From assembly GCA_027579435.1 (NCBI GenBank), contig JANBPK010000952.1, forward strand, positions 1 to 64,000: DNA of 64,000 nucleotides. The letters are read 5' to 3'. This stretch comes from Candolleomyces eurysporus (Eukaryota > Basidiomycota > Agaricomycetes > Agaricales > Psathyrellaceae). How positions within the stretch are numbered: position 1 is the stretch's first letter; the number at the start of each line of letters is the position of its first letter. A program made the translations under genes and the position numbers. This document shows, one piece after another, positions 17,985-64,000 of the stretch. The notes below the pieces were generated by a model. That model was given only the letters and a program-made list of their open reading frames with translations. It was not told where the DNA came from and did no database searches.

Positions 17985-19810
17985 ATGTCTTCTCCCACTC
18001 TCCTTTGTCGTCCCTCCCACATGCTTGACCCCGCCCCCGCCATCGCCCCCGCCGACGACCACGCCCACNGACGCCGACCACATGATCTTCGGGCCACTCG
18101 ATATGGAGGACAACGTCCACATCCACCCCGCCTCCTCAATCCCCCTCCAGTGGGATCCATACGCAGTCCACGATCTCGACTCAAAGGCTGCGTTTACCTT
18201 CGACACCGTCGCCCCGATGCCTGCATACGAATATGGGCCTCCCGAGGTGTCGCCTACCGGCAGTTACTACGACTCTGCCACCCTCTACAACCCGGACGTT
18301 GTCAAGAACTCCCCCAGTCTCGACGACAACCTCTATCTCGCCTCCTGGATCAACGAATCAGAGCTTTCCGGTGTTACATCCCCCTCCTCACCGATATCCA
18401 TCCCATCGCCACTCGAGCCACAGCTATCGTCTGCCTCGTCCTTCTCGGCCTTTAGCGACCAGGCCGCATTCCCCCAGGACCCCGTCTTCTCACCATCGGC
18501 GCTCGCAGCGCTTCATCCCCTGCCAGCATCGGTTTCTCCCTCGTCCTCCTTTGAAGACTCTCATCCCCTCCGTCAACGAGTCAATTCTATCACCACAACG
18601 ATGTCGCAGCCGGCATGGGCGTCTCAATTATGGGACCCATCACACAATTCGCTGCGATCTCCGTCTCTGATGCGTCCCTCAGTCCGCCATTCTCCACTTT
18701 CCGATGGTACCATTCGTCCGCGCATTCCTGTCAGGAGGGGATCTCAATCTTCGGCACAAACATTCCTCTCTACAAGCGCTCCCTCCATCGTCGAACCCCG
18801 ATCCCCCAGCATGATCAGTCGCCGCTCCGAATCCGTGAGTATGAGCGACGATCGTGACGCAACTGTCCGCAGGAAGAAGCGTTCTCCGGGTGCCGAAGAT
18901 ATTGTCTCCACTGCATCAATGGACAGAGCAGACGAGTCCCGTAAGTTGCCCATCAGAATCTGTCAGCAGTTTCGTGCATACTGATATTGTTGTACAGCTC
19001 TCAAGTCTGTTCTCAAACCTCCTAAGTTGGCTCCATCGGCTTGGCAGCTGTATTTTACCGACTGGATCCAAAGGCAGCAACGTCTAGGTACCCGTAAGCT
19101 CAATGTTGCTCAAGCGGCGAAAGAAGCGGGTCAGGAGTACGCTTCTCTCAGCGCTGCCGAGAAAGAGGTATGTTTTTCGTGACGTCATTCTGTCGTCGTT
19201 TCATAGTCCTGACTTTTGTCTGCGTAGCCCTATAAGCGGCGTTCACAGGCCGCGAAGGAGGCAAGGGAGAGAGAGCATGAAGCCTACATGAGATCTCTTA
19301 CGCCAGAGGACATCAAACGCGAGAATGTGTTTCGGGCTGCGCAGCGGAAAGCGGGGAAGTCTCGCAAGGGGAACATCAAGGACCCCAATGCCCCGAAGAA
19401 GCCCCTCAGCGCATACTTCATGTTCCTCCAGCGTATTCGCGCCGATCCTAAACTGGTCAGGGACATATTCGGAGATGAGACTGAGACTACCAAACAGAGC
19501 GTCCTGGCGGCTGCTAAATGGCGGTCGATGACAGACGGAGAGCGACAGGTAACTCGATTTGGCTTTTTCCCGCCGTTCGTTATATCTAACCGCCTGTTTG
19601 TCCTTCTAGCCCTTTTTGGCTCAGGCTGAGCAGGAGAAGATGGAATACGAAGCAGCAAGGCGCCTGTACGAAGAGGGGACTACGGGCTATGGAACGAACA
19701 TCAACTTTAGCATCCTTCAAGGCAGCCCCGCCTTCCCGACGATCAAGCTCGAGTCCGAGAGCGAGAGCGAGGGCTTCATCACCGATGAGGGTTTCAGCCA
19801 TCGATCCTAA
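17985..19810 (+). CDS. Two-HMG-box chromatin protein (Exp1-like)
   Basis: Nuclear DNA-binding protein with two HMG boxes in its C-terminal half. Box 1: PPKLAPSAWQLYFTDWIQ to SLSAAEKEPYKRRSQAAK. Box 2: DPNAPKKPLSAYFMFLQRI through SVLAAAKWRSMTDGERQPF, split by an intron after GERQ. The N-terminal 320 residues are Ser/Pro-rich and disordered, with an RRKKRSPG basic patch near their end. The architecture recalls Exp1 of Coprinopsis cinerea, an HMG protein needed for cap expansion, but orthology is inferred. The ATG at 17985 is chosen because deleting the N at 18069 joins it to the downstream frame (DDHAH|DADHM). The ATG at 17932 keeps the frame only if the N is a real base. The C-terminus is acidic (LESESESEGF). 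Confidence 0.85.
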
Positions 19811-20277
19811 TTTTTTTNCTTCTTTTCTTTCTTGTTCACTTATGTAGGTTTATCTCTCATTTATGTGGTTTGTGTTTTCTCTGTGCCACGGCATTACGAC
19901 CTATTACGACTACGACCTTCTCTATCTCTCTATCTTCGGGGAGCATCTGCATATGACGCAAGTTTTACCGACATGCTTTTTGCTGTTTTGAACTATTTTA
20001 TTATTTTGTCGTCAAGAGGTACACACGGACACTTGTATATCAGATGATACCTATGTCGCTGTATTTGTAGAACTTTTTTNCCCTTTCTATTCTTGAGACT
20101 GGCCCATACCATTACGAGGACCCTGTCTTCGGACAGTCTGTAATATACAGTCACCCTGCTCAGTTGTATGCCCGCTTGTATTGATACCTCCCCTCATTGG
20201 TTCCTTTGCGTATACGTAGATAGGAAGCTACGGTTCTAAATGAATACGACGTCATCGAGGGCTGGATATTAATGCGG
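19811..20277. other. 3' region between convergent genes
   Basis: 467 bp holding the 3' UTRs of the HMG-box gene (+) and the acetyltransferase (-). It is AT-rich with two T-runs each followed by an N (19818 and 20080). No ORF is supported. Confidence 0.5.
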
Positions 20278-21039
20278 TTATAACGGCAGACGAAGAACCA
20301 TCTTCTGATGAGGATCGCCCTCCTCATCGAACTGCTCGCCCTGAAAAGAGAAATGTCGATCCTAGATCTAGAGTTTGGCTTCCCTAGAGTGGGAGGAGAG
20401 GCACGTACCTCAGGCAAATAGCCTAACCTGGGCAAAAAACGAGGCAGGGGATCAAAAATCTGGATGGAAAATATGGCGCTGACATTGCCGCGAAGCCTCT
20501 GCCAGCCTCGAGGTGATGGCATGCTACTTACTTTGCATAGAAGCCCTGAACCGGTAGCTGTGAATGACAGACTATGGTTACGGGATTTGTTTCGAGGGCG
20601 TGTGCCTTGACCCACTCGTGCAGGGATTCGACGAGCTCTCTCCCAAAACGGTACTTCCGGTACTCTTTGAGGATAGCGAGCCGAGTAAGCTTGTAGTAGT
20701 CGCCGCTGGGTGACTTTACTTGGTGCAGCCTTATCGTGCCGACAGGTGTCAGCGATGGCACTAGTCGCAGAAGAAAATGGGTTGCGGTATCTTCGTGTCT
20801 GTTGAGGAAAGGGACGTTGTGATCGGGAGGAAGAAAAGGGGGAGCCGGGACTGACTCATCGATCTCTGTTTCGAGGGGGAAATGCTGCTCGTGGTGGAAG
20901 ACGTTGATACGCTGGGGGAGGGTATTGGACTGGAGGGTCTGCAACGATGAGTGGGGTTGCATACCACATCATAGCACTGTTGCCGCTCCTCGGGAGACCG
21001 TGTAACGACAATTTCATGGGCTGGTATTTCTGAGGCCAT
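20278..21039 (-). CDS. GNAT-family N-acetyltransferase
   Basis: Acetyl-CoA-dependent acetyltransferase of the GNAT fold. Exons splice in frame as CYDV|RINVFHHEQ, EIDE|HEDTATHF, GFYAK|LGYLPE and LPE|GEQFDEEGDPH. Motif A with the cofactor pyrophosphate loop is visible as LAILKEYRKYRFGREL, preceded by the core strand GTIRLHQ. The C-terminal segment has the typical GFYAKLGYLPEG and ends HQKMVLRLPL before a stop at 20280-20278. ATG at 21039-21037 (MASEIPAHE). The layout is that of small stand-alone GNATs; the acceptor molecule cannot be deduced. It is divergent from the PPR gene with 227 bp between starts. Confidence 0.88.
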
Positions 21040-21266
21040 TTATGCTGGGCTGAAGAGAGTGGCACTGCCGCTGAAAGACCTGATTCGGGTTGGCCGGCAC
21101 CGGACGGGCCGGTAAAGTTTCGACGCCTGGATGTGTCGAGGCTCGCGCGCTGGGCAGCGAAAACAGGCTTTTCCTTGACCGTCCAGCGACCTCATCACGG
21201 TTCGACCCATATATGCCCCATCCCGGCGTCCTCTAACCCCCTCGTCACAGGCAGCCTTTCGGTTTC

Positions 21267-24074
21267 ATGATTGAACCGTTGGCGCATGTCGTCAAAGGTT
21301 CAGTCAGCAGGCACGCCGTCTTGTCAACGGCCACCGGCAGCACTCGCATTTCGAGTGTGAAGCCTCTGAAAAGCAACTTTTTCACCCCAGAACCTCGCCC
21401 AGCCTTGCTCGACAACCCCCATACACCACTCGAACTGACAGCTGAATGCCGAATATGGTTCTGCTGTCCAGTCAGACACTCTATTTGGTGTCCTAGTGCG
21501 TTCAATTCCCTCTTATTTCATGAACATTCGTTTAAATCCACGTTTCAGGCCGGGACGTATATCTGGATCTCGAAGAGCCCCGTGGTCGCAAGTCCAGGAC
21601 GCGTTCCAATCACCCCCCACATGCCGACTTTAGCCGCCATTTACCTTACAACCCTTCCTCCCCACCTTCCCTCCACGGCCAACGGAGACACGCCTCGCTG
21701 TTGCTCAAAGAGGCTCCTCCAACTGGCCTGCTTTTCTCCACCGCCCCCGACCACTCTGATCTCACTCCAGACCCCAAACTTCGACAAGCCATCATTGACA
21801 AACTCGTGAGGAAGGATTTTGCGAAAGCAAGGAAACTGCTGGCCCTCTACACCCCTTCCGACTCATTTTGGTATTCGAAACAATTGTTCGTCGAATCATA
21901 CGCTGGAAATATTGGGAAAGCAGAGCAGCACTTTGCGGACTTTTCAGCATCGGCCACGCCAACCGTATACGAAATCCGGTCGCTTCTTATGGCGTACGCA
22001 AATTCTCTCGACTTTTCCGGATTGCGATATAGGTTCGACGAACTCTTCGCCTCCAATTCCCCACACCAGCTTCGCATCGAATACTTCTACCCCGCTTTCT
22101 CTGCCATAGCACGCGCCAGTGACGCCAATGACCGTCGGTTGAAGGAATGGCGGAAAAGGCTTGCACGAGCAGGTTTCGAACCCGACTCTTTTATCTACAG
22201 TTTTATGGTGCAATACTACTCCAAGCACAATCGTACGGCTGCTGTGACAGATATTTTCGAGGAGATACGGTCGAGGGGCACAAAAGTTGGCATCCGCGTT
22301 TATCAGAATGGGATGACTTACTTCGCAAGGTGGAAGGATTTGGCGGCAGTAAAAGCTCTGTTTCGAAGAGTACTCGAGGAAGGCCTCAAACCCGACATAT
22401 ACCTCTACACCACCCTCATGCACGCACACGCAGAAGTCAGAGATTGGGAGGGAGTGCTGAAAGTTCGCGAAGACATGAAGACCAACGGGGTGGACCCTAA
22501 TCAATCCATCGTAGCCTTCAATATCCTCCTCAAGGCCTCTCATTCCATGGGAGTCTCGTACCATACCATCCGCACCCAGTTCCAATCCCTCGAATCATTG
22601 GGGCTTACTGCCAACGCACACACCTACTGCACCGTCGCCGAAGCTGCTATTCAATCCAACTCGTTGGCCGATGCCTTCGATTACCTGCAACAAATGGTTG
22701 ATCGCAATCGAACCGAGCCTGGATTTTTGAACGCTCATATTTTCACCATCCTCATCGACGGGTGCTTACGACAAGGCGAAGGGGAACTGGCGAGTCGGGT
22801 TTACTCAAGCATGGAGGAGCATGGAATTCAACCTACCTCCCTCACGTTTGGAAAGATGCTGCAAGGCACAGCGCGTCTTCCTCAAGACAAGCAGAGAGGG
22901 GTATGGAAGACACTGGAGACCGCACCGATGGGCGAAGGCTGGAAAGTGCCGTCGCTTGGAAGAAGGACCTGGTACGAGCATATTTACGTGCCGCAGATGC
23001 GCGCAGCCCTCCAGAGCGGGTCGACCTCCAAGGTCCAGGATATCTACGACCACGTTGAGGCCATCGGGGAGGAACCGACCTTGATGATGAACTTCATACT
23101 GTTGGACGCGTATCGACGATCGTTCGACGCGCCAAGCATCCACAGGCTGTGGCCCCGAATGCTCCAACAGGCATCGACCAATCATCATGCAGCTGATGCA
23201 CTGAAGGTTCGGAGGAGGCGCGGTGGAGATACTGCAGCATCCGATATCCTCGCACCTGCGCTCTCCATTTGCCTTGATGCCCTCTCCAGCGCAGGATTGC
23301 ATTATTCAGCGATTCGAGCTTGGAACCAATACAAAAACGCCGGCTTTAGATTCGACATCCATAATTGGAACCATCTCGTCCTGGCCTTGGTTCGTGCTGG
23401 TCGGGTTAGGGTCGCGTTTGAGGTCGTAGAGAAAGTTCTCCTGCCGTTTTCCCGCCGGACATCCACCTCGTCATCGACTACTCGGAAACCCTCTAGATCA
23501 TCTCCACCTCTTAGAACTTTTTTTTTATCCGTTTACCCGTGCCCCGACGCGTTTCACGGTCGGTAGATGCCTCTTCCGGGCACGGTCAAGAATCGGCGGC
23601 CGAACACAGCGCCACTTCGACGAATCCTCGGACACCAACGATTTCCTGTCCTCTTTCAAAGAACTCATTCAAGCCTCGAAGATTGAAAACGACTGGCGAA
23701 TACACAAGTCCGTCCAGCGTATTCTCGCTAGAGTGCTCTGGAAATTGCGCAGCGGCTTCGCCATTACCCCAGTCCCAGTCAAATGGAATTCGCGGAAAAT
23801 CAACTTCCGGTTGAATCCTTTGAGAGCGGCAGGACAGTTGAAGGTGGTCATGAAACGGTGCCCCTCAGCGGTTCTCTATATCCGGGAGTCCTCGAAACAA
23901 AGAAAACCGTTCAGATTCCGGGATAACGCGATCCCACTGTGGACAGAAACTCGGTCTACTACAGAGGCGGAAACCATAGGAAAGAAGGGGGAAGAGGGAG
24001 AGGAGGAAGAGGTGACACCATATAGCCAAAACTCTACGATTACGAACGAAATTACAGAGGAAAGAGTTGGGTAA
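21267..24074 (+). CDS. Mitochondrial-type PPR protein, frameshifted in assembly
   Basis: Pentatricopeptide-repeat protein, likely an organellar RNA-binding factor. ATG 21267 starts a basic Ser/Arg N-terminus suited to mitochondrial import; one intron (about 21500-21546) then joins the frame to a long exon. PPR-like helical pairs run from about 21790 to 23440, with typical turns such as ARAGFEPDSFIYSFMVQYY, EEGLKPDIYLYTTLMHAHA, EEHGIQPTSLTFGKML and NAGFRFDIHNWNHLVLALV. The long frame stops at 23564-23566, just after a 9-T run at 23518-23526. Shifting one base there and splicing a 5' GTAGAT...ACACAG intron (about 23561-23610) joins a further coding-like frame (FLSSFKELIQASKIENDW) that runs to 24074. 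I infer a homopolymer error. Residues after about 23800 may be 3' UTR. Confidence 0.8.
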
Positions 24075-55668: not shown

Positions 55669-57259
55669 ATGAAAATCCTCTCCTTGTTGATCTCATGCAT
55701 CTTGGCAACGATCCTTGGATCCTGCGCTGAGACCGACGGTTCAGCTGAGAAGCTCGCGGGAGGGATATCATTCCATCATGGTCATCCAAGAGTGCCCGGG
55801 AAAGTGGCTGCAGCTTGGTTCGCTGGATGGCATGCTACAGAAGGATTTCCCCTATCCAAAGTCCCTTGGTCAAAATACACACATCTGACCTACGCCTTTG
55901 CGTGAGTGCAGTCCATATTCTTGAAGGCTGGGAGGAAGATGCTGACGCCGGCGGGCATCCAGGGAAACGACTCCAGATGTCCGTACACTCAGCTTAGAAG
56001 GATCCAACCCTGCCGTGCTGCCCGACTTCGTTCGGGAAGCGCGTAAAAATGTGTGTTCAGCATGCGTACTATCACGGCATGCTTACTGATTACACCGCCC
56101 GGGTAGAATGTGAAAGCTCTGATATCAGTTGGCGGTTGGACTGGATCACGCTTCTTCTCGACGGCTGTTGCATCTCCACAAAACCGGACTGCCTTCGTCA
56201 AGACGGTCATAGGATTTGTGCGGAAGTATGATTTGGATGGTGTCGACTTCGAGTAAGCCGAAATTGCCCCGACGGATTTCACAAAGCAGTGATTCTGACA
56301 ACTACATTGGCTTGCAGCTGGGAGTACCCTAACAGCCAAGGCATAGGATGCAACACCATCAGCTCAGCTGACACCTCAAACTTCCTAGCCTTCCTTCGGG
56401 AATTGAGAAGGGACCCATTGGGCGCCAAGATCATCGTAACTGCAGCGACGGCGACAAGGCCTTTCACTGCGTCGAACGGCTCGCCATCAAGCGATGTCTC
56501 CGCCTTTGCCCAACTTTTGGACTACATCGCTATCATGAACTATGACATTTGGGGACCATGGAGTCCAACTGTTGGCCCCAATGCGCCATTGGATGATACC
56601 TGCGCTGCTCCTGCAAATCAGGCAGTTTCCGCCGTAACTGCTGTTCGAGCTTGGTCCGGAGCTGGCATTCCTCTCAACCAACTCGTTCTGGGAGTCCCTG
56701 GCTACGGTCACTCCTTCAGAGTTAGACGTGGCAGTGCCTTTGTAAACGGAACAAGCGCCTTGCTAGTCGCATACCCGCCATTCGATGGAGCTGACAGACC
56801 CAAAGGCGACGCCTGGGACGATGGCGCTGGTGTCGACGTCTGCGGCGTACAAACACCCGACGGAGGGAATTACAATTTCTGGGGGTTGATTGAGAATGGA
56901 TTCTTGAAACAGGATGGCACGCCCGCAGCAGGTATCAGCTACCGCTACGATACCTGTAGCCAAACGGTCAGCTATTCTTCTTAAATTTCATTTCCAAAAG
57001 CTCACTACTTCACGATAGCCATACGTCTACAACGCAACTTCCGAGATTATGGTTTCTTTCGACAACGCCCAGGTACGTTCCCACCTCCTTTTGTGGATAA
57101 GATGCATACTGACTCTGGACTCTCCTCGACGTGTAGTCCTTTGCTGCAAAAGGTTCCTTCATCCGTTCGACAGGACTCAAAGGTTTCGCATTGTGGGAGG
57201 CGGGCGGGGACTATAACGACATTCTTCTCAATTCGATCCGCTCCGCAGCAAAGTTCTGA
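55669..57259 (+). CDS. Secreted GH18 chitinase
   Basis: Family 18 chitinase. ATG 55669 opens a signal peptide (MKILSLLISCILATILGSC). The barrel reads VAAAWFAGWHATEGF, SKVPWSKYTHLTYAFA, then a GGWTGSRFF-type strand, the catalytic signature DGVDFDWEYP with the acid Glu (split by an intron between the second Asp and the Trp), MNYDIWGPWSP, and LVLGVPGYGHSFRV. A C-terminal segment TPYVYNATSEIMVSFDNAQ and FALWEAGGDYNDILLNS closes the barrel with stop TGA 57257-57259. No chitin-binding module is visible. The last part (from 56924) belongs to the tandem duplication, and a truncated copy lies at 59413-59741. Its role may be cell-wall remodelling or degradation of foreign chitin. Confidence 0.93.
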
Positions 57260-57368
57260 AGATCCAGTAGTGACATGGCCGGCGGAAGCGAGCGATACTT
57301 AATATAGCTCGGATATTTATAGCAATGTGGTATTACGTTCCTTTCCTTACAGTAAGCAATGTGACGCT

Positions 57369-59174
57369 TCATTCCGAGTCTGCGATTTCGAACCCTGCCA
57401 CATGAAGTGCGGTCGCGAACTAGTGAATGTTAGGGAAGAAGAAATCGAGCAAGATACGGAATAAACGCACCTGAACCTTGGCAATTGCATAAAGTTGATT
57501 GACATCATATCCGACTCTTTCGCTAAGGTCGCCTGATAATTCTTTAGCACACAAAGGAGGTGACAGGACGACCGCTTTACCGCTATTGTGATACATTGGA
57601 TCCGCGACTGAAAGTAAAGGTAAGCCGAGCATCCTAAGTTGCCTATGGAAAGAAGCACGTACTGGGTCCTGCGCGCTCGAAAACTTGTGTTGCTGGAAAA
57701 CCTTGGGTGATGAAGGACTGATGTAGATGTTAAGTAGGCATATATGAGAGAGATATGAACGGTCATAGTACCTGGTGGTCACTGCAGCAAGCCTTATTAG
57801 GGACGATCAGCCGATGGAGATTCAAACGGCCACGTAGTGTAACACTTACCGAAGAGTATCCAACAGTCAGTTCTGGACTGTAGAGAGCAGAGATATTTCT
57901 AACGAGCGCTGTGACTTCAGGAGTGCCAATGCGCTCAGGCAGTCCCAACTGGAGAGGTTCGTCCGGAGCACGATACGCCGTCATGTCCGCTTGTATCATC
58001 AGAACAATGCTGGCATCTTGGGCTCTCAATTGTTCTGGGATACATCAGCTAATGTCCAAGGAATCGAAAAGAAACATACTAGCATAAGCATCAGAGCCTA
58101 ACAGCCCTTGTTCCTCACCGGCAAAGGTGACTAGCTCGAGGTTCGTGTGGAATCGGATGCGCTTGCGAGCAATGGTACGGGCGATAGAAAGGATTCCAGT
58201 CGTTCCGGAGCCATCGTCATTCCCACCAGGTGCACGGACACTGAACAATGACCCGCGACTGTCATAGTGGCTGCTCAAGATGATAGTATCGCTGGTGTCA
58301 ACGACAGAGGCGTAGCGGCTGACATATCATGACAGGCATTATGAGCTATTGCATCCACGAGTACGAAAAAATCGCACCATATCACGTTTGGAGCAAATCC
58401 TGGCCTGAAGTTCTCTAGGCGACATTTTGCGCCTGTCTCTTCGATGCGGTCTTTGATCCAATTCGCAGCGGTTCTTGCCCCTGGGGAGATCGAGTGCCTA
58501 GACACAACCCCTGAGTTCCCGTCTTCTCCTGTGAGGAAACGAATATCGTTCTGGATGTGCGGGATAGATATGTTATTGACGACTGAGGCCACGGCCGGAC
58601 TGAACTTCAGCTCGGATAGAACGCGTCGGACACGTTCGACGTTATCATCCGACACCACACGATAAGCGCTTGGGGACTCGGGGACGATGGTCGACTTCCA
58701 AAACCTAGGGAGACGGGTATCGATTGTGAAAGCCTCCTCCTCCGGCAAGGCAACCAGAACTGAGGTGTCGGTCCTGTATAGGACGAGCGACCCGGGGGAT
58801 TCACTGGTCGAAAGCGTCTGCTGAGTTTCGTCCGGATTACGGGCGCTTAACGCGCCAAGGACGTCGTCAAGCAGAGGGCCCTGGTGGGTGGATCTGAGCA
58901 GCGATAGATCTACAGACTCGTGCTCAATCCACACCAAGCGCTTTTCAGAGCTTGGGGCAGTAAGAAGCATGCTGGGCTCCTGTGAAAGGTAGCTGCTGGA
59001 GGCAACCTGGACACAGTCTGGGGTATCGAGCCTGAAGAGACTGGAGGTGGTCTCGCCATTCCTATAATGGCCTAAGAAGCTCTGGGACAGGCATGGCGAC
59101 TCGAGGAACAGGGTAGAGTTAAGAGGGGCAAGGAGCAGGAGCCCTAGGCCTGCTGCTGTTTGGATGGTTGGCAT
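57369..59174 (-). CDS. Secreted M28-family metallopeptidase, copy A
   Basis: Zinc exopeptidase of family M28. ATG 59174-59172 gives a hydrophobic signal peptide (MPTIQTAAGLGLLLLAPLN). The N-terminal part (about 300 residues) is a variable pro/insert region ending KCRLENFRPGFAPNVIW. The catalytic part keeps both metal ligands and the general base: HYDSRG (His, Asp), GGNDDGSGTTG (Asp), AGEEQGLLGSDAY (Glu-Glu), IQADMTAY (Asp) and DPMYHNSGD (His). Later exons SACCSDHQ, SFITQGFPATQVFERAGP and YDVNQLYAIAKVQ lead to FATALHVAGFEIADSE and a stop at 57371-57369. It is probably an aminopeptidase releasing amino acids outside the cell. Here SSHYDS replaces the usual SGHYDS found in copy B. Confidence 0.88.
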
Positions 59175-59392
59175 GGTCTTGAGCAAGCCGGGATATTCAA
59201 CCTGGGCGATTAACAAGGAGGTAACGACAGGTATCTGGACACAGCCACCAGTACCCAGCTCTGTGGTGCGTTCAAGACGTCGAGCTCCGTTTGACAGACT
59301 TGAAGGCGGCCGCATCGCGCCAGTTTCTCTAATGACCATCAAGATCCCGGGTGTGCTACAGACATAATGGGTGAGTGTACCTCGTATTCGCG

Positions 59393-59412
59393 ACGGCCAA
59401 GCTACTGAGTGT
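59393..59412 (+). pseudogene. Remnant VAC14 start, ATG changed to ACG
   Basis: The end of unit A carries the first codons of VAC14 (GCCAAGCTACTGAG). The start codon reads ACG here and ATG at 61852. The sequence then jumps at 59413 to chitinase DNA. It is the left-over edge of the duplication and cannot encode VAC14. Confidence 0.8.
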
Positions 59413-59741
59413 CGCAGCAGGTATCAGCTACCGCTACGATACCTGTAGCCAAACGGTCAGCTATTCTTCTTAAATTTCATTTCCAAAAGCTCACTATTTC
59501 GCGATAGCCATACGTCTACAACGCCACTTCTGAGATTATGGTTTCTTTCGATAACGCCGATAACGCACAGGTACGCTCCCACCTACTTTTGTGGAAAAGA
59601 TGGATGCTCAGACTCTCTATCCTCCTCGACGTGTAGTCCTTTGCTGCAAAAGGTTCCTTCATCCGTTCGACAGGACTCGAGGGAGGCGGGGACTATAACG
59701 ACATTCTTCTCAATTCGATCCGCCCCGCAGCAGAGTTTTGA
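59413..59741 (+). pseudogene. Truncated chitinase 3' fragment
   Basis: Copy of the last exons of the GH18 gene, from the GISYRYDTCSQT exon through YVYNATSEIMVSFDN to a TGA at 59739-59741. It lacks the signal peptide, the catalytic DGVDFDWE and the barrel start, so it cannot be an enzyme. Compared with the parent it has a 9-nt insertion (DNADNAQ for DNAQ) and an in-frame 18-nt loss removing part of FALWEA. The frame stays open because the lesions are multiples of three. Confidence 0.85.
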
Positions 59742-59853
59742 AGATCCAGTGGCGACCGGTGAAATGGCCGGCGGAAGCGAGCGACACTTAAAATAGACAC
59801 TAAGATCATAGCAATGTGGTATTACGTTCCCTGACAGTAAGCAATGTGACACC

Positions 59854-61647
59854 TCATTCCGAATCTGCGATTTCGAACCCTGCCACGTGAAGTGCGGTTG
59901 CGAACTAGTGAATGTTAGGGAAGAAGAAATCGAGCAAGATACGGAATAAACATACCTGAACCTTGGCAATTGCATAAAGTTGATTGACATCATATCCGAC
60001 TCTTTCGCTAAGGTCGCCTGATAATTCTTTAGCACGCAAAGGAGGTGACAGGATGACCGCTTACCGCTATTGTGATACATTGGATCCGCGACTGAAAGTA
60101 AAGGTAAGCCGAGTATCCTAAGTTGCCCATGGGGGGAAGCACGTACTGGGTCCTGCGCGCTCGAAAACTTGTGTCGCTGGAAAACCTTGTGTGATGAAGG
60201 ACTGGTGCAGATGTTGAGGCATATCAGAGAAAGATATGATTGGTCATACCTGATGGTCACTGCAGCAAGCCTTATGGACAGTCAGCCGATGGAGATTCAA
60301 ACGATCACCGAATGTAACACTTACCGAAGAGTATCCAACAGTCAGTTCTGGACTGTAGAGAGCAGAGATATTTCCAACGAGCGCTGTGGCTTCAGGAGTG
60401 CCAATGCGCTCAGGCAGTCCCAACTGGAGAGGTTCGTCCGGAGCACGATACGCCGTCATGTCTGCTTGTATCATCAGAACAATGCTAGCATCTTGGGCTC
60501 TCAATTGTCCTGAGATACATCAGCTAATGTTCAAGGAATCGAAAAGAAACGTACGAGCGTAAGCATCAGAGCCTAACAGCCCTTGTTCCTCACCGGCAAA
60601 GGTGACTAGCTCGAGGTTCGTGTGGAATCGGATGCGCTTGCGAGCAATGGTACGGGCGATAGAAAGGATTCCAGTCGTTCCGGAGCCATCGTCATTCCCA
60701 CCAGGTGCACGAACACTCCCGAATGAGCCGCGACTGTCATAGTGGCCGCTTAAGATGATAGTATCGTTGGTGTCAACGATAGCGGCGTAGCGGCTGACAC
60801 ATCACGATAGGCATATGAGCTATTGCATCAACGAGTACGAAAAATCGCACCATATAACGTTTGGAGCAAATCCTGGCCTGAAGTTCTCTAAGCGACATTT
60901 TGCGCCTGTCTCTTCGATGCGGTCTTTGATCCAATTCGCAGCGGTTCTTGCCCCTGGGGAGAACGAGTGCCTAGACACAATCCCTGATTTCCCGTCTTCT
61001 CCTGTGAGGAAACGAATATCGTTCTGGATGTGCGGGATAGATATGTTATTGACGACTGAGGCCACGACCGGACTGAACTTTAGATCGGATAGAACGCGTC
61101 GGACGCGTTCGACGTTATCATCCGACACCACACGATAAGTGCTGGGGGACTCAGGGACGATGGTCGACTTCCAAAACCTAGGGAGACGGGTATCGATTGT
61201 GAAAGCCTCCTCCTCTGGCAAGGCAACCAGAACTGAGGTGTCGGTCCTGTATAGGATGGGCAACGCGGGTGATTCACTGGTCGAAAATGTCTGTTGAGTT
61301 TCGCCCGGATTACGGGTACTCAACGCGTCAAGAACGTCGTCAAGGAGAGGGCCCTGGCGGGTGGATCTGAGCAGCGATGGATCCACAGACTCGTGCTCAA
61401 TCCACACCAAGCGCTTTTCAGAGCTTGGGGCAGTAAGAAGCATGCTGGGCTCCTGTGGAAGGTAGCTGTTGGAGGCAACCTGGACACAGTCTGGGGTATC
61501 GAGCCTGAAGAGACTGGAGGTGGTCTCGCCATTCCTATAGTGGCCTAAGAAGTTCTGGGAGAGGCATGGCGACTCAAGGAACACAGTGGAGTTGAGAGGG
61601 GCAAGGAGCAGGAGCCCTAGGCCGGCTGCTGCTTGGATGGTTGGCAT
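59854..61647 (-). CDS. Secreted M28-family metallopeptidase, copy B
   Basis: Paralogue of the gene at 57369-59174 and very similar throughout, introns included. ATG 61647-61645, signal peptide MPTIQAAAGLGLLLLAPLN. Metal-site motifs: SGHYDSRG, GGNDDGSGTTG, AGEEQGLLGSDAY, IQADMTAY and DPMYHNSG. Exon junctions follow copy A, including GYSS|ACCSDHQ, and AATAGCG|GCGACC with a better donor (GTAAGC rather than GTAAAG). No frameshift or stop is visible; stop at 59856-59854. Copy B retains the canonical SGHYDS, while A has SSHYDS. Amino-acid differences are scattered, many in the N-terminal variable region (for example PALPILYR against PGSLVLYR). Both genes appear functional. Confidence 0.86.
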
Positions 61648-61851
61648 GGTCGTGAGCAAGCCGGAATGTTCAACTGGGCGCTTGAGATATGACCACAGGT
61701 ATCCGGGCACAGCCACCAGTACCCAGCTCTGTGGCGCGTTCGAGCTCCGTTTAACAGCTTGAAGACGGCCACATCGCGCCAGGTCCTCTAATGACCATCG
61801 AGATCCCGGCTGTACTACAGACATAATGGGTGAGTGTACCTCGTATTCGTG

Positions 61852-64000
61852 ATGGCCAAGCTACTGAGCGTATTGTACCCAGACGCTGCTATTTCACGAC
61901 AACTTGTCGACAAGATCTACGAGAAGCGTAAGGCAGCTGCGCTCGACCTCGAGAAGTCCGTTCATACGATACACATCCCTCGGACGCTAGCTAAACATCT
62001 CTTAGGCAGATACGAGAATGCCATCAGCAAGGAGAGCAGAAGCGAATCAACCAGATTATCGACCAGCTGGTTGAGATGTTCAGTCAGACCTCAAATCCCC
62101 TTCATATCAGAAACGGTGGCCTGATCGGTCTGGCTGGCACGGCCATTGCCCTTGGAGTCGACATTGCCTCGTATATGGACAAGTTCATTAACCCTCTGCT
62201 CAGCTGCTTCATCGATTCGGAGAACAGAATCCGCTATTTCTCTGCCGAATGCCTGTACAATATCGCCAAGGTCTCTAAGGGGGAAGTGCTAGTTTACTTC
62301 AACGACATATTTGATGCGTTGAGCAAGGTAGGTCCTTCATGCATCGACGTCCGGCTGTTTCTACATCTCATTCCTCGTTTCTAGCTTGCGGCTGATTCAG
62401 AGTTATCGGTGAAGAATGGAGCCGAATTATTGGACCGTCTCCTCAAGGACATTGTCGCCGAATCAGCCTCGGTGTACATTCCAATGTACCCAGAAACAGC
62501 CAAAGCTCGCAATGAGAAAGACGCCCAGAGTAGTGTACTCGTCGATTTGACCACCAGCTCCGAGGAAGGCCCCAAGAAAGCTTTCTCACTTGCTCACTTC
62601 ATCCCCTTACTGCGCGAACGGATCTACGTCGTCAGTCCGTTTACAAGAAGCTATCTTGTCTCCTGGATAACTGTGTTGGATTCGGTACCAGAACTAGAGC
62701 TTATAACGTACCTTCCCGAGTTCCTGGACGGACTTCTGTTGGTGGATTTCTTTATTGTGTCAGGGGCGCATTGCTCATCACGTTCGCCAGGAAATATCTC
62801 TCGGATCCCACTGAGGACGTGCGTGTCGCCACAGAAAATCTGCTAGCAGATTTCCTACGGGAAATTCACGACGTAACAATCGTCTCTCGGCAATTCGAAC
62901 ATCATGCTCATGCCAAGGAGAAATATCGAAGTTCGTCGACCTTGGCTCACCGACATGATCCTGAGAGTGGCCAGGAGGGGGAAAGTGACCAGAAATCGCA
63001 TCAGGGCAGTGAACCCGCCGTGAACCACGATATCACTTCCGAACTAGACGATCAAGATATCGGATGTAAGTGCTTCTCATCTCAACCGGTTGCACAATAA
63101 GCCAACTAGCTTTCAGCGTGGGTCCCAGGACAAGGTGTCAAGATTGATTTCCCGTCTATTGTCGACATTTTATTACAACAGCTGGACGGAGAACGTAAGT
63201 TTTACCCTCTTTTTTCTTCTTTCTCCCTGGTGTTGAGATCGATACAGACGACGAGATTCAGCAATCTACTGCACTGCGATGGCTCGCAGAATTCGTTAGT
63301 TTCGCACCAGAAGTCATGGTGCCCTTCACCCCTCGATTGATTCCCGCTATCCTTCCCAATTTGGCGCACCATGTTTCGATGATCCAGAACGCCGCCAATC
63401 GAACCAACAAGTTTCTTTTCAACGTTATCCAGAATCTTCCCATTGCGCAAGAGGCTGTCCCTAGTCCGGGTGCTAGCGTTTTGTCTGGTGCAGAGAAGAT
63501 ACCAACTGCGAAATTTCCAAGGTCCCCCACACCCACCATTTCTGGTCCATCCGGTCGACAATCCGTTCTCAGTAATCAGATACCAAGAGATGTCTCCTCT
63601 CCGGACCTAACTCTAGACGGACAATCAATCCAACGGTCAAGAAGTGGGACTGTAACCGATTCATCCTCGGCCCCTCGTCCACCCCAACTTGTGGATGTGA
63701 CGACCTCTAATCCGGATGCCAGTCGATCACACTCCCCGGTTGCTTCAGTACACAGCCAAGGCGGAGCCAATTTGCAACTACAACCACAGGAAGAAGCTGC
63801 AGATCCGTTTGACTATCAGGCCGCTGTAAACGAGTTGACCATTCAGTTCATCAGCGAGTTCGAGGAAACAAGGGTTTCAGCGCTTAAATGGCTTATTATG
63901 CTGCACCAGAAAGTACCGAAGAAGGTTCGTGGCTCTAGAGCACGCGTTGTTTCATTATTGACTTTTTACAGATCTTGGCTATGGATGATGGAACATTTCC
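61852..64000 (+). CDS. VAC14: VAC14 scaffold of the Fab1/PIKfyve complex, 3'-truncated
   Basis: HEAT-repeat scaffold that holds Fab1/PIKfyve kinase and Fig4 phosphatase on endosomal and vacuolar membranes for PtdIns(3,5)P2 synthesis. ATG 61852 ([11 protein letters not shown]). The family-specific N-terminus is unmistakable: [19 protein letters not shown], joined by an intron to [20 protein letters not shown], then [59 protein letters not shown], and PPLREKIYVV-like HEAT repeats. A Ser-rich insert (63475-63760) follows, with [20 protein letters not shown] near the end. The gene continues past 64000. Its first 20 bases and promoter are duplicated at 59175-59412. Confidence 0.95.

Follow-up and report, generated by a model that had tools for sequence, protein, structure and literature searches.

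What does a tandem duplication leave behind when its breakpoints fall inside both neighbouring genes: which gene is gained whole, what becomes of the two parents, and what is made at the seam? The question is raised by a repeat at 56924..61871 of the window (the whole stretch of DNA that was analysed, 64,000 nucleotides), where a chitinase, an M28 peptidase and VAC14 lie side by side.

Extent and gene content of the repeat

Alignment of the two units with each other fixed the duplication to the base: units A and B are abutting direct repeats, arranged head-to-tail with no spacer (Table 1). Global alignment showed 2284 identical positions in 2441 ungapped columns (93.6%); the mismatches comprise 112 transitions and 45 transversions, and there are 15 gap runs. 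When the organism's own genome (65.85 Mb in 1296 contigs) was searched with unit A, the best candidates being scored, the matches were unit A itself and unit B only. In agreement, all eight direct-repeat families of at least 60 nt reported by a repeat finder in the 64 kb window were pieces of the A/B pair.

Table 1. Coordinates of the features at the duplicated locus, numbered from the first letter of the window.
Feature	Position	Strand	Basis
GH18 chitinase, intact, 6 exons, 430 aa	55669..57259	+	spliced reading open; PF00704 200.6 bits; best homologue among the matches listed 73% identical
Unit A of tandem repeat, 2489 nt	56924-59412	.	alignment with unit B; own-genome search
M28 peptidase copy A, 8 exons, 478 aa	57369..59174	-	open reading; PF04389 98.3 bits
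Head-to-head promoter region, copy A, 192 bp, now before the possible chimera	59175..59366	.	gene models
Possible chimeric gene, 69 aa	59367..59741	+	in-frame spliced reading; weak GH18 match
Possible chimera, VAC14-derived coding exon 1	59367-59370	+	in-frame spliced reading
Candidate hybrid intron, 47 nt	59371..59417	+	donor and acceptor sites; splice-site score 11.69
Duplication junction, blunt	59412..59413	.	0 bases of overlap on either side
Unit B of tandem repeat, 2459 nt	59413-61871	.	alignment with unit A
Possible chimera, chitinase-derived exons	59418-59455, 59508-59570, 59637-59741	+	in-frame spliced reading
M28 peptidase copy B, 8 exons, 478 aa	59854..61647	-	open reading; PF04389 96.7 bits
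Head-to-head promoter region, copy B, before intact VAC14	61648..61825	.	gene models
VAC14, 5′ part	61826..64000	+	spliced reading; gene runs on beyond the window

The first-pass annotation had proposed that the breakpoints lie within both flanking genes, that neither parent was broken and that only the peptidase was copied whole, and the gene models bear this out. The left breakpoint falls inside chitinase exon 4 (56318-56966), and the 430-aa reading runs through it. The right breakpoint lies in VAC14 intron 1 (61830-61882, 53 nt), 11 nt before the intron ends. The coding part of VAC14 exon 1 is ATGG (61826-61829) and the reading resumes after the intron at ACGCTGCT; this exon model is confirmed by the C. 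aberdarensis VAC14 protein P0241, whose N-terminus is identical to it. In all, 482 of 499 aligned residues are shared with P0241, and 106 of 120 homologues among the matches listed start with M[DE] and have A, T, S, P or V as the next residue. VAC14 stays open through the right breakpoint over the 591 codons followed, which stop short of the end of the gene. As had been described, the repeat holds the chitinase 3′ end, a complete peptidase and the VAC14 promoter; the 'first codons' of VAC14, however, amount to the coding part of exon 1 (the ATG plus one base), to which 42 nt of the 53-nt intron 1 are added. VAC14 intron 2 (61959-62010) has an unusual donor, GTTCAT.

The chitinase and the peptidase converge tail to tail, with a gap of 109 bp in unit A. 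The peptidase and VAC14 are arranged head to head, and the distance from one start codon to the other is 192 bp in unit A and 178 bp in unit B; the repeat therefore carries the peptidase together with its promoter and terminator. Both peptidase copies have the same eight exons and seven GT-AG introns (boundaries set manually with GT/AG sites and M28 homology as guides), are open throughout, and score above the PF04389 cut-off of 21.3 bits. A dispersed or transposed peptidase family was ruled out, the other matches in the own genome being 29-38% identical. Elsewhere, at about 18920-23160 on the minus strand of G000:C200, chitinase matches fall into two groups some 2 kb apart, an arrangement that suggests two GH18 genes in tandem.

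Neither parental breakpoint shares microhomology with the junction (0 bases on both sides). Ectopic recombination between repeats is ruled out, as breakpoint homology is 0 bases, and because the junction is blunt we infer a non-homologous join: an end in VAC14 intron 1 would have been connected with one in chitinase exon 4, by end joining or template switching. The rival that the first-pass annotation had named is an assembly error, in which alleles of a heterokaryon were wrongly strung together. The divergence of about 6% between the units is within the possible range for mushroom alleles. Passages of PMC12786890 describe the published Candolleomyces assemblies as fragmented and, for the most part, made with Ion Torrent. 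The window contains 12 single Ns, spread over positions 115-41772, its first two thirds; none occurs after that, so that the junction has none. Overlap assemblers, however, need shared sequence and scaffolders leave Ns, neither of which is found at the seam, and 19 kb of flank, compared with the assembly as pieces of 2129, 8001 and 8901 nt, gave no near-identical second copy (the third piece had three short matches of 67-73%). An artefact is thus highly improbable. We consider instead, with a probability of about 0.82, that a real 2.5 kb tandem duplication, fixed in the assembly, arose in a Candolleomyces lineage by a non-homologous join and left two peptidases, uninterrupted parents and a possible chimera that is most likely neutral. 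The sequence itself shows two whole peptidase genes, each with its promoter and terminator, both parents uninterrupted, and VAC14 exon 1 with its intron-1 donor followed by a usable acceptor in chitinase code and a frame that is open across the final three exons of the chitinase.

Age of the duplication and divergence of the peptidase copies

The first-pass annotation took the high identity of introns and exons to mean a recent event or ongoing gene conversion. The peptidase copies have a Ks of 0.107 and a Ka of 0.030; with a Ka/Ks of 0.28, which suggests purifying selection, both peptidases are probably made, and it is because of this constraint that their exons (67 of 1437 positions different) are more alike than their introns (31 of 357, 8.7%). 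Chitinase introns differ at 11 of 116 positions (9.5%), the chitinase exon tail at 9 of 202, the chitinase-peptidase intergenic region at 16 of 105 (15%), and the promoter with the VAC14 part (59175-59412) at 23 of 224. Peptidase exons carry no indels; the two exonic indels, of 9 and 18 nt, are both in the chitinase tail, and of the 13 non-coding indels 10 have a length that is not divisible by 3. Because of the Ks and the intron difference in the peptidase the event is not very recent, and the other non-coding differences also speak against a recent date, as does the finding that proteins A and B are 94% identical, about as close as each is to the C. aberdarensis protein P0001 (93-94%). The age of the duplication is comparable to that of the split from C. 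aberdarensis, or somewhat younger.

With regard to gene conversion, 124 of 1349 non-coding and third-codon sites differ between the units, and the longest identical run at these sites, 58, does not exceed what chance would give (P 0.35), whereas the differences are somewhat clumped (bin variance greater than in shuffled data, P 0.017; the first 50 sites have none). The signal for ongoing conversion is weak and mixed; a little conversion between the units is possible, judging from the pattern of differences, but is not needed for the data.

The closest peptidase among the matches listed, EST38_g1194 of C. aberdarensis (P0001; 94% identical to copy B), has VAC14 at the next tag, EST38_g1195, and a contig of 219,677 bases is given for both. 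The best 120 of 1192 chitinase matches include none from C. aberdarensis, and the comparison there covers the peptidase-VAC14 side. Judged by locus tags, relatives show an order with a single peptidase. All three genes have consecutive tags in Tricholomella constricta (D9615_000636/637/638, in the order chitinase, peptidase, VAC14). Peptidase and VAC14 are likewise consecutive in Ephemerocybe (D9611_002532/533), Agrocybe pediades (D9613_005003/002) and Leucocoprinus (D9756_000213/214), as are chitinase and peptidase in Termitomyces (H2248_006644/645), while in Tephrocybe sp., Arthromyces matolae and Tricholoma furcatifolium the chitinase and VAC14 tags are two apart, which leaves room for one gene. 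The order is not universal: in Gymnopilus dilepis and Psilocybe cyanescens the tags of peptidase and VAC14 differ by 10 and 14, respectively, the tags are further apart in Amanita and Marasmius crinis-equi, and the Paramarasmius peptidase among the matches listed does not share a contig with the chitinase and VAC14 of that fungus. Two M28 peptidases of Mycena belliarum among the matches listed (P0049 and P0097) have a contig size of 826719 in both cases and are possibly an independent pair.

An older duplication, shared with C. aberdarensis and either kept alike by occasional gene conversion or later lost there, would also account for an A-B protein distance close to that of either copy to P0001, and for the clumped differences. 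The protein database was clustered at 90% and P0001 stands for 3 member sequences, so its cluster may hide a second C. aberdarensis copy. Copies A and B were sisters in the best tree of 26 proteins (UFBoot 98), and four informative residues unite A and B against P0001 and P0002, compared with one for A with P0001 and one for B with P0001; in an AU test with 8 proteins, however, neither A+P0001 (p 0.20) nor B+P0001 (p 0.09) was rejected, and the sister placement is not firm. Together with the identical runs of chance length, the tree and the informative residues make a shared older duplication unlikely, and we retain a duplication about as old as the split or somewhat younger.

Taking P0001 as the reference, 17 of the 30 peptidase differences are changes in copy A and 12 in copy B, one being unassignable. 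Copy A alone has changed at near-invariant sites (G291F, F290L, F229I and I223V), where 120, 119, 119 and 117 of the 120 homologues among the matches listed keep G291, F290, F229 and I223, respectively. These changes would fit a copy A that is losing or changing its function, but the imbalance of 4/17 against 0/12 is not significant (Fisher P 0.12), frame and M28 match are intact, and the PF04389 score of A is slightly higher than that of B; we regard a shift in function as possible but doubtful. Near the M28 motif HYDSRGS, copy A reads LF where copy B and the relatives read FG (58280-58310 in unit A against 60753-60785 and 60710-60730 in unit B), and in the DNA this is a block of four adjacent differences that looks like one complex mutation. 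At residue 299, A, B and P0001 have PGGNDDGSG, compared with PGGDDDGSG in four other aligned relatives, at a site adjoining the metal-binding motif. Beside known fungal M28 aminopeptidases (PF04389; leucine aminopeptidase A, PDB 7oez/6zep; 1amp), the duplicated peptidase stands out only by its duplicate state and by the copy-A changes at near-invariant sites. Both copies match the PF04389 profile, and the homologue P0001 can be aligned with these structure chains over residues 225-453 and 265-443.

A possible chimeric gene at the junction

A head-to-tail copy with breakpoints inside two like-oriented genes, both of them intact (VAC14 over the 591 codons), places the VAC14 5′ end (exon 1) before chitinase exons 4-6 at 59412/59413. 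The junction had been read before without notice of a possible in-frame spliced gene there: unspliced, by eye, the chimera is not in frame, but once spliced an open reading frame of 69 aa crosses the junction. Its candidate first intron consists of 42 nt of VAC14 intron 1, with the donor GTGAGT, and 5 nt of former chitinase coding sequence, with the acceptor CGCAG (context CGCAG/CAGG; a second AG follows 3 nt later in the same frame). Its length is inside the 45-65 nt range of 18 parent-gene introns and its splice-site score is higher than 14 of these 18, a set that includes the VAC14 intron which supplied the donor. A CTGAG motif lies 9 nt from the end of the hybrid intron, compared with 15 nt in the native VAC14 intron. 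From either AG, the predicted protein (MAGISYRYDTC...AAEF) continues via two normal chitinase introns to the chitinase stop. Transcription of the chimera would start from the copy of the head-to-head promoter, and splicing would yield this protein, which has no signal peptide. An unspliced fusion starting at ATGGCCAAG was ruled out: that ATG is ACG in unit A, and homologues put the VAC14 start in the ATGG exon.

With a GH18 match of 17.2 bits, below the cut-off of 29.6 and confined to profile positions 268-309 of 317, the chimera lacks a catalytic GH18 domain. Its 18-nt loss also removes FALWEA, where the parent and three relatives, the four chitinases aligned, keep FA[LT]WEA. Judging by these losses, the chimera is most likely not a chitinase.

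In favour of a functional new gene kept by selection, the start, six splice sites and frame of the chimera are intact; both exonic indels keep the frame, in contrast to most non-coding indels, and the codons that differ from the chitinase tail comprise six synonymous and three non-synonymous changes. Part of this synonymous excess, however, belongs to the constrained parent branch, and the residues taken by the 18-nt loss are kept in the four other chitinase sequences of the alignment. Moreover, in 20,000 neutral simulations that began with the undiverged chimera and applied half of the observed A-B divergence, start, splice sites and frame were all intact in 12.3% of runs. Among the 5314 runs in which start and splice sites survived and two or more exonic indels occurred, 824 (15.5%) were intact throughout. 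Because neutral change leaves the chimera intact this often, its preservation does not demonstrate selection, and we consider a selected function improbable; the chimera is most likely drifting neutrally. The birth in a single step of an expressed VAC14-chitinase gene, its frame kept since then through two in-frame indels, can be proposed only tentatively, and equally tentative is its composition from the VAC14 promoter, start exon, donor and probable branch point with an AG of chitinase code as acceptor.

Relation to known systems

The head-to-tail copy of 2.5 kb is an example of a known route of gene birth, and the locus offers a compact mushroom case, readable at base level, of one tandem duplication that yields both a complete paralogue and a possible chimeric gene. 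The one unusual detail of this well-preserved case is the putative hybrid intron, which results from a breakpoint that fell within an intron; if spliced, it would illustrate how coding sequence can supply an acceptor when a gene is born. Among the literature matches listed, we found no fungal case of the three-gene chimera anatomy, although one could still be in print.

The anatomy itself is already known, having been published for chimeric genes that arose through tandem duplication in Drosophila yakuba (Rogers, Shao and Thornton 2017, PMC5460883). In Fig. 2 of that study, the GE18453 5′ end is joined to the GE18451 3′ end and GE18452, between them, is wholly copied, the same arrangement of three genes as in the mushroom. 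The study further gives up-regulation for 24 of 76 chimeras, against 5 of 66 whole-gene duplicates. The two systems differ in that RNA shows the D. yakuba chimera to be up-regulated and the event is segregating, whereas the mushroom chimera, predicted from DNA, belongs to a basidiomycete and comes with an older divergence. They differ also in the breakpoint, which here lies in intron 1 and yields a putative hybrid intron whose acceptor comes from coding sequence.
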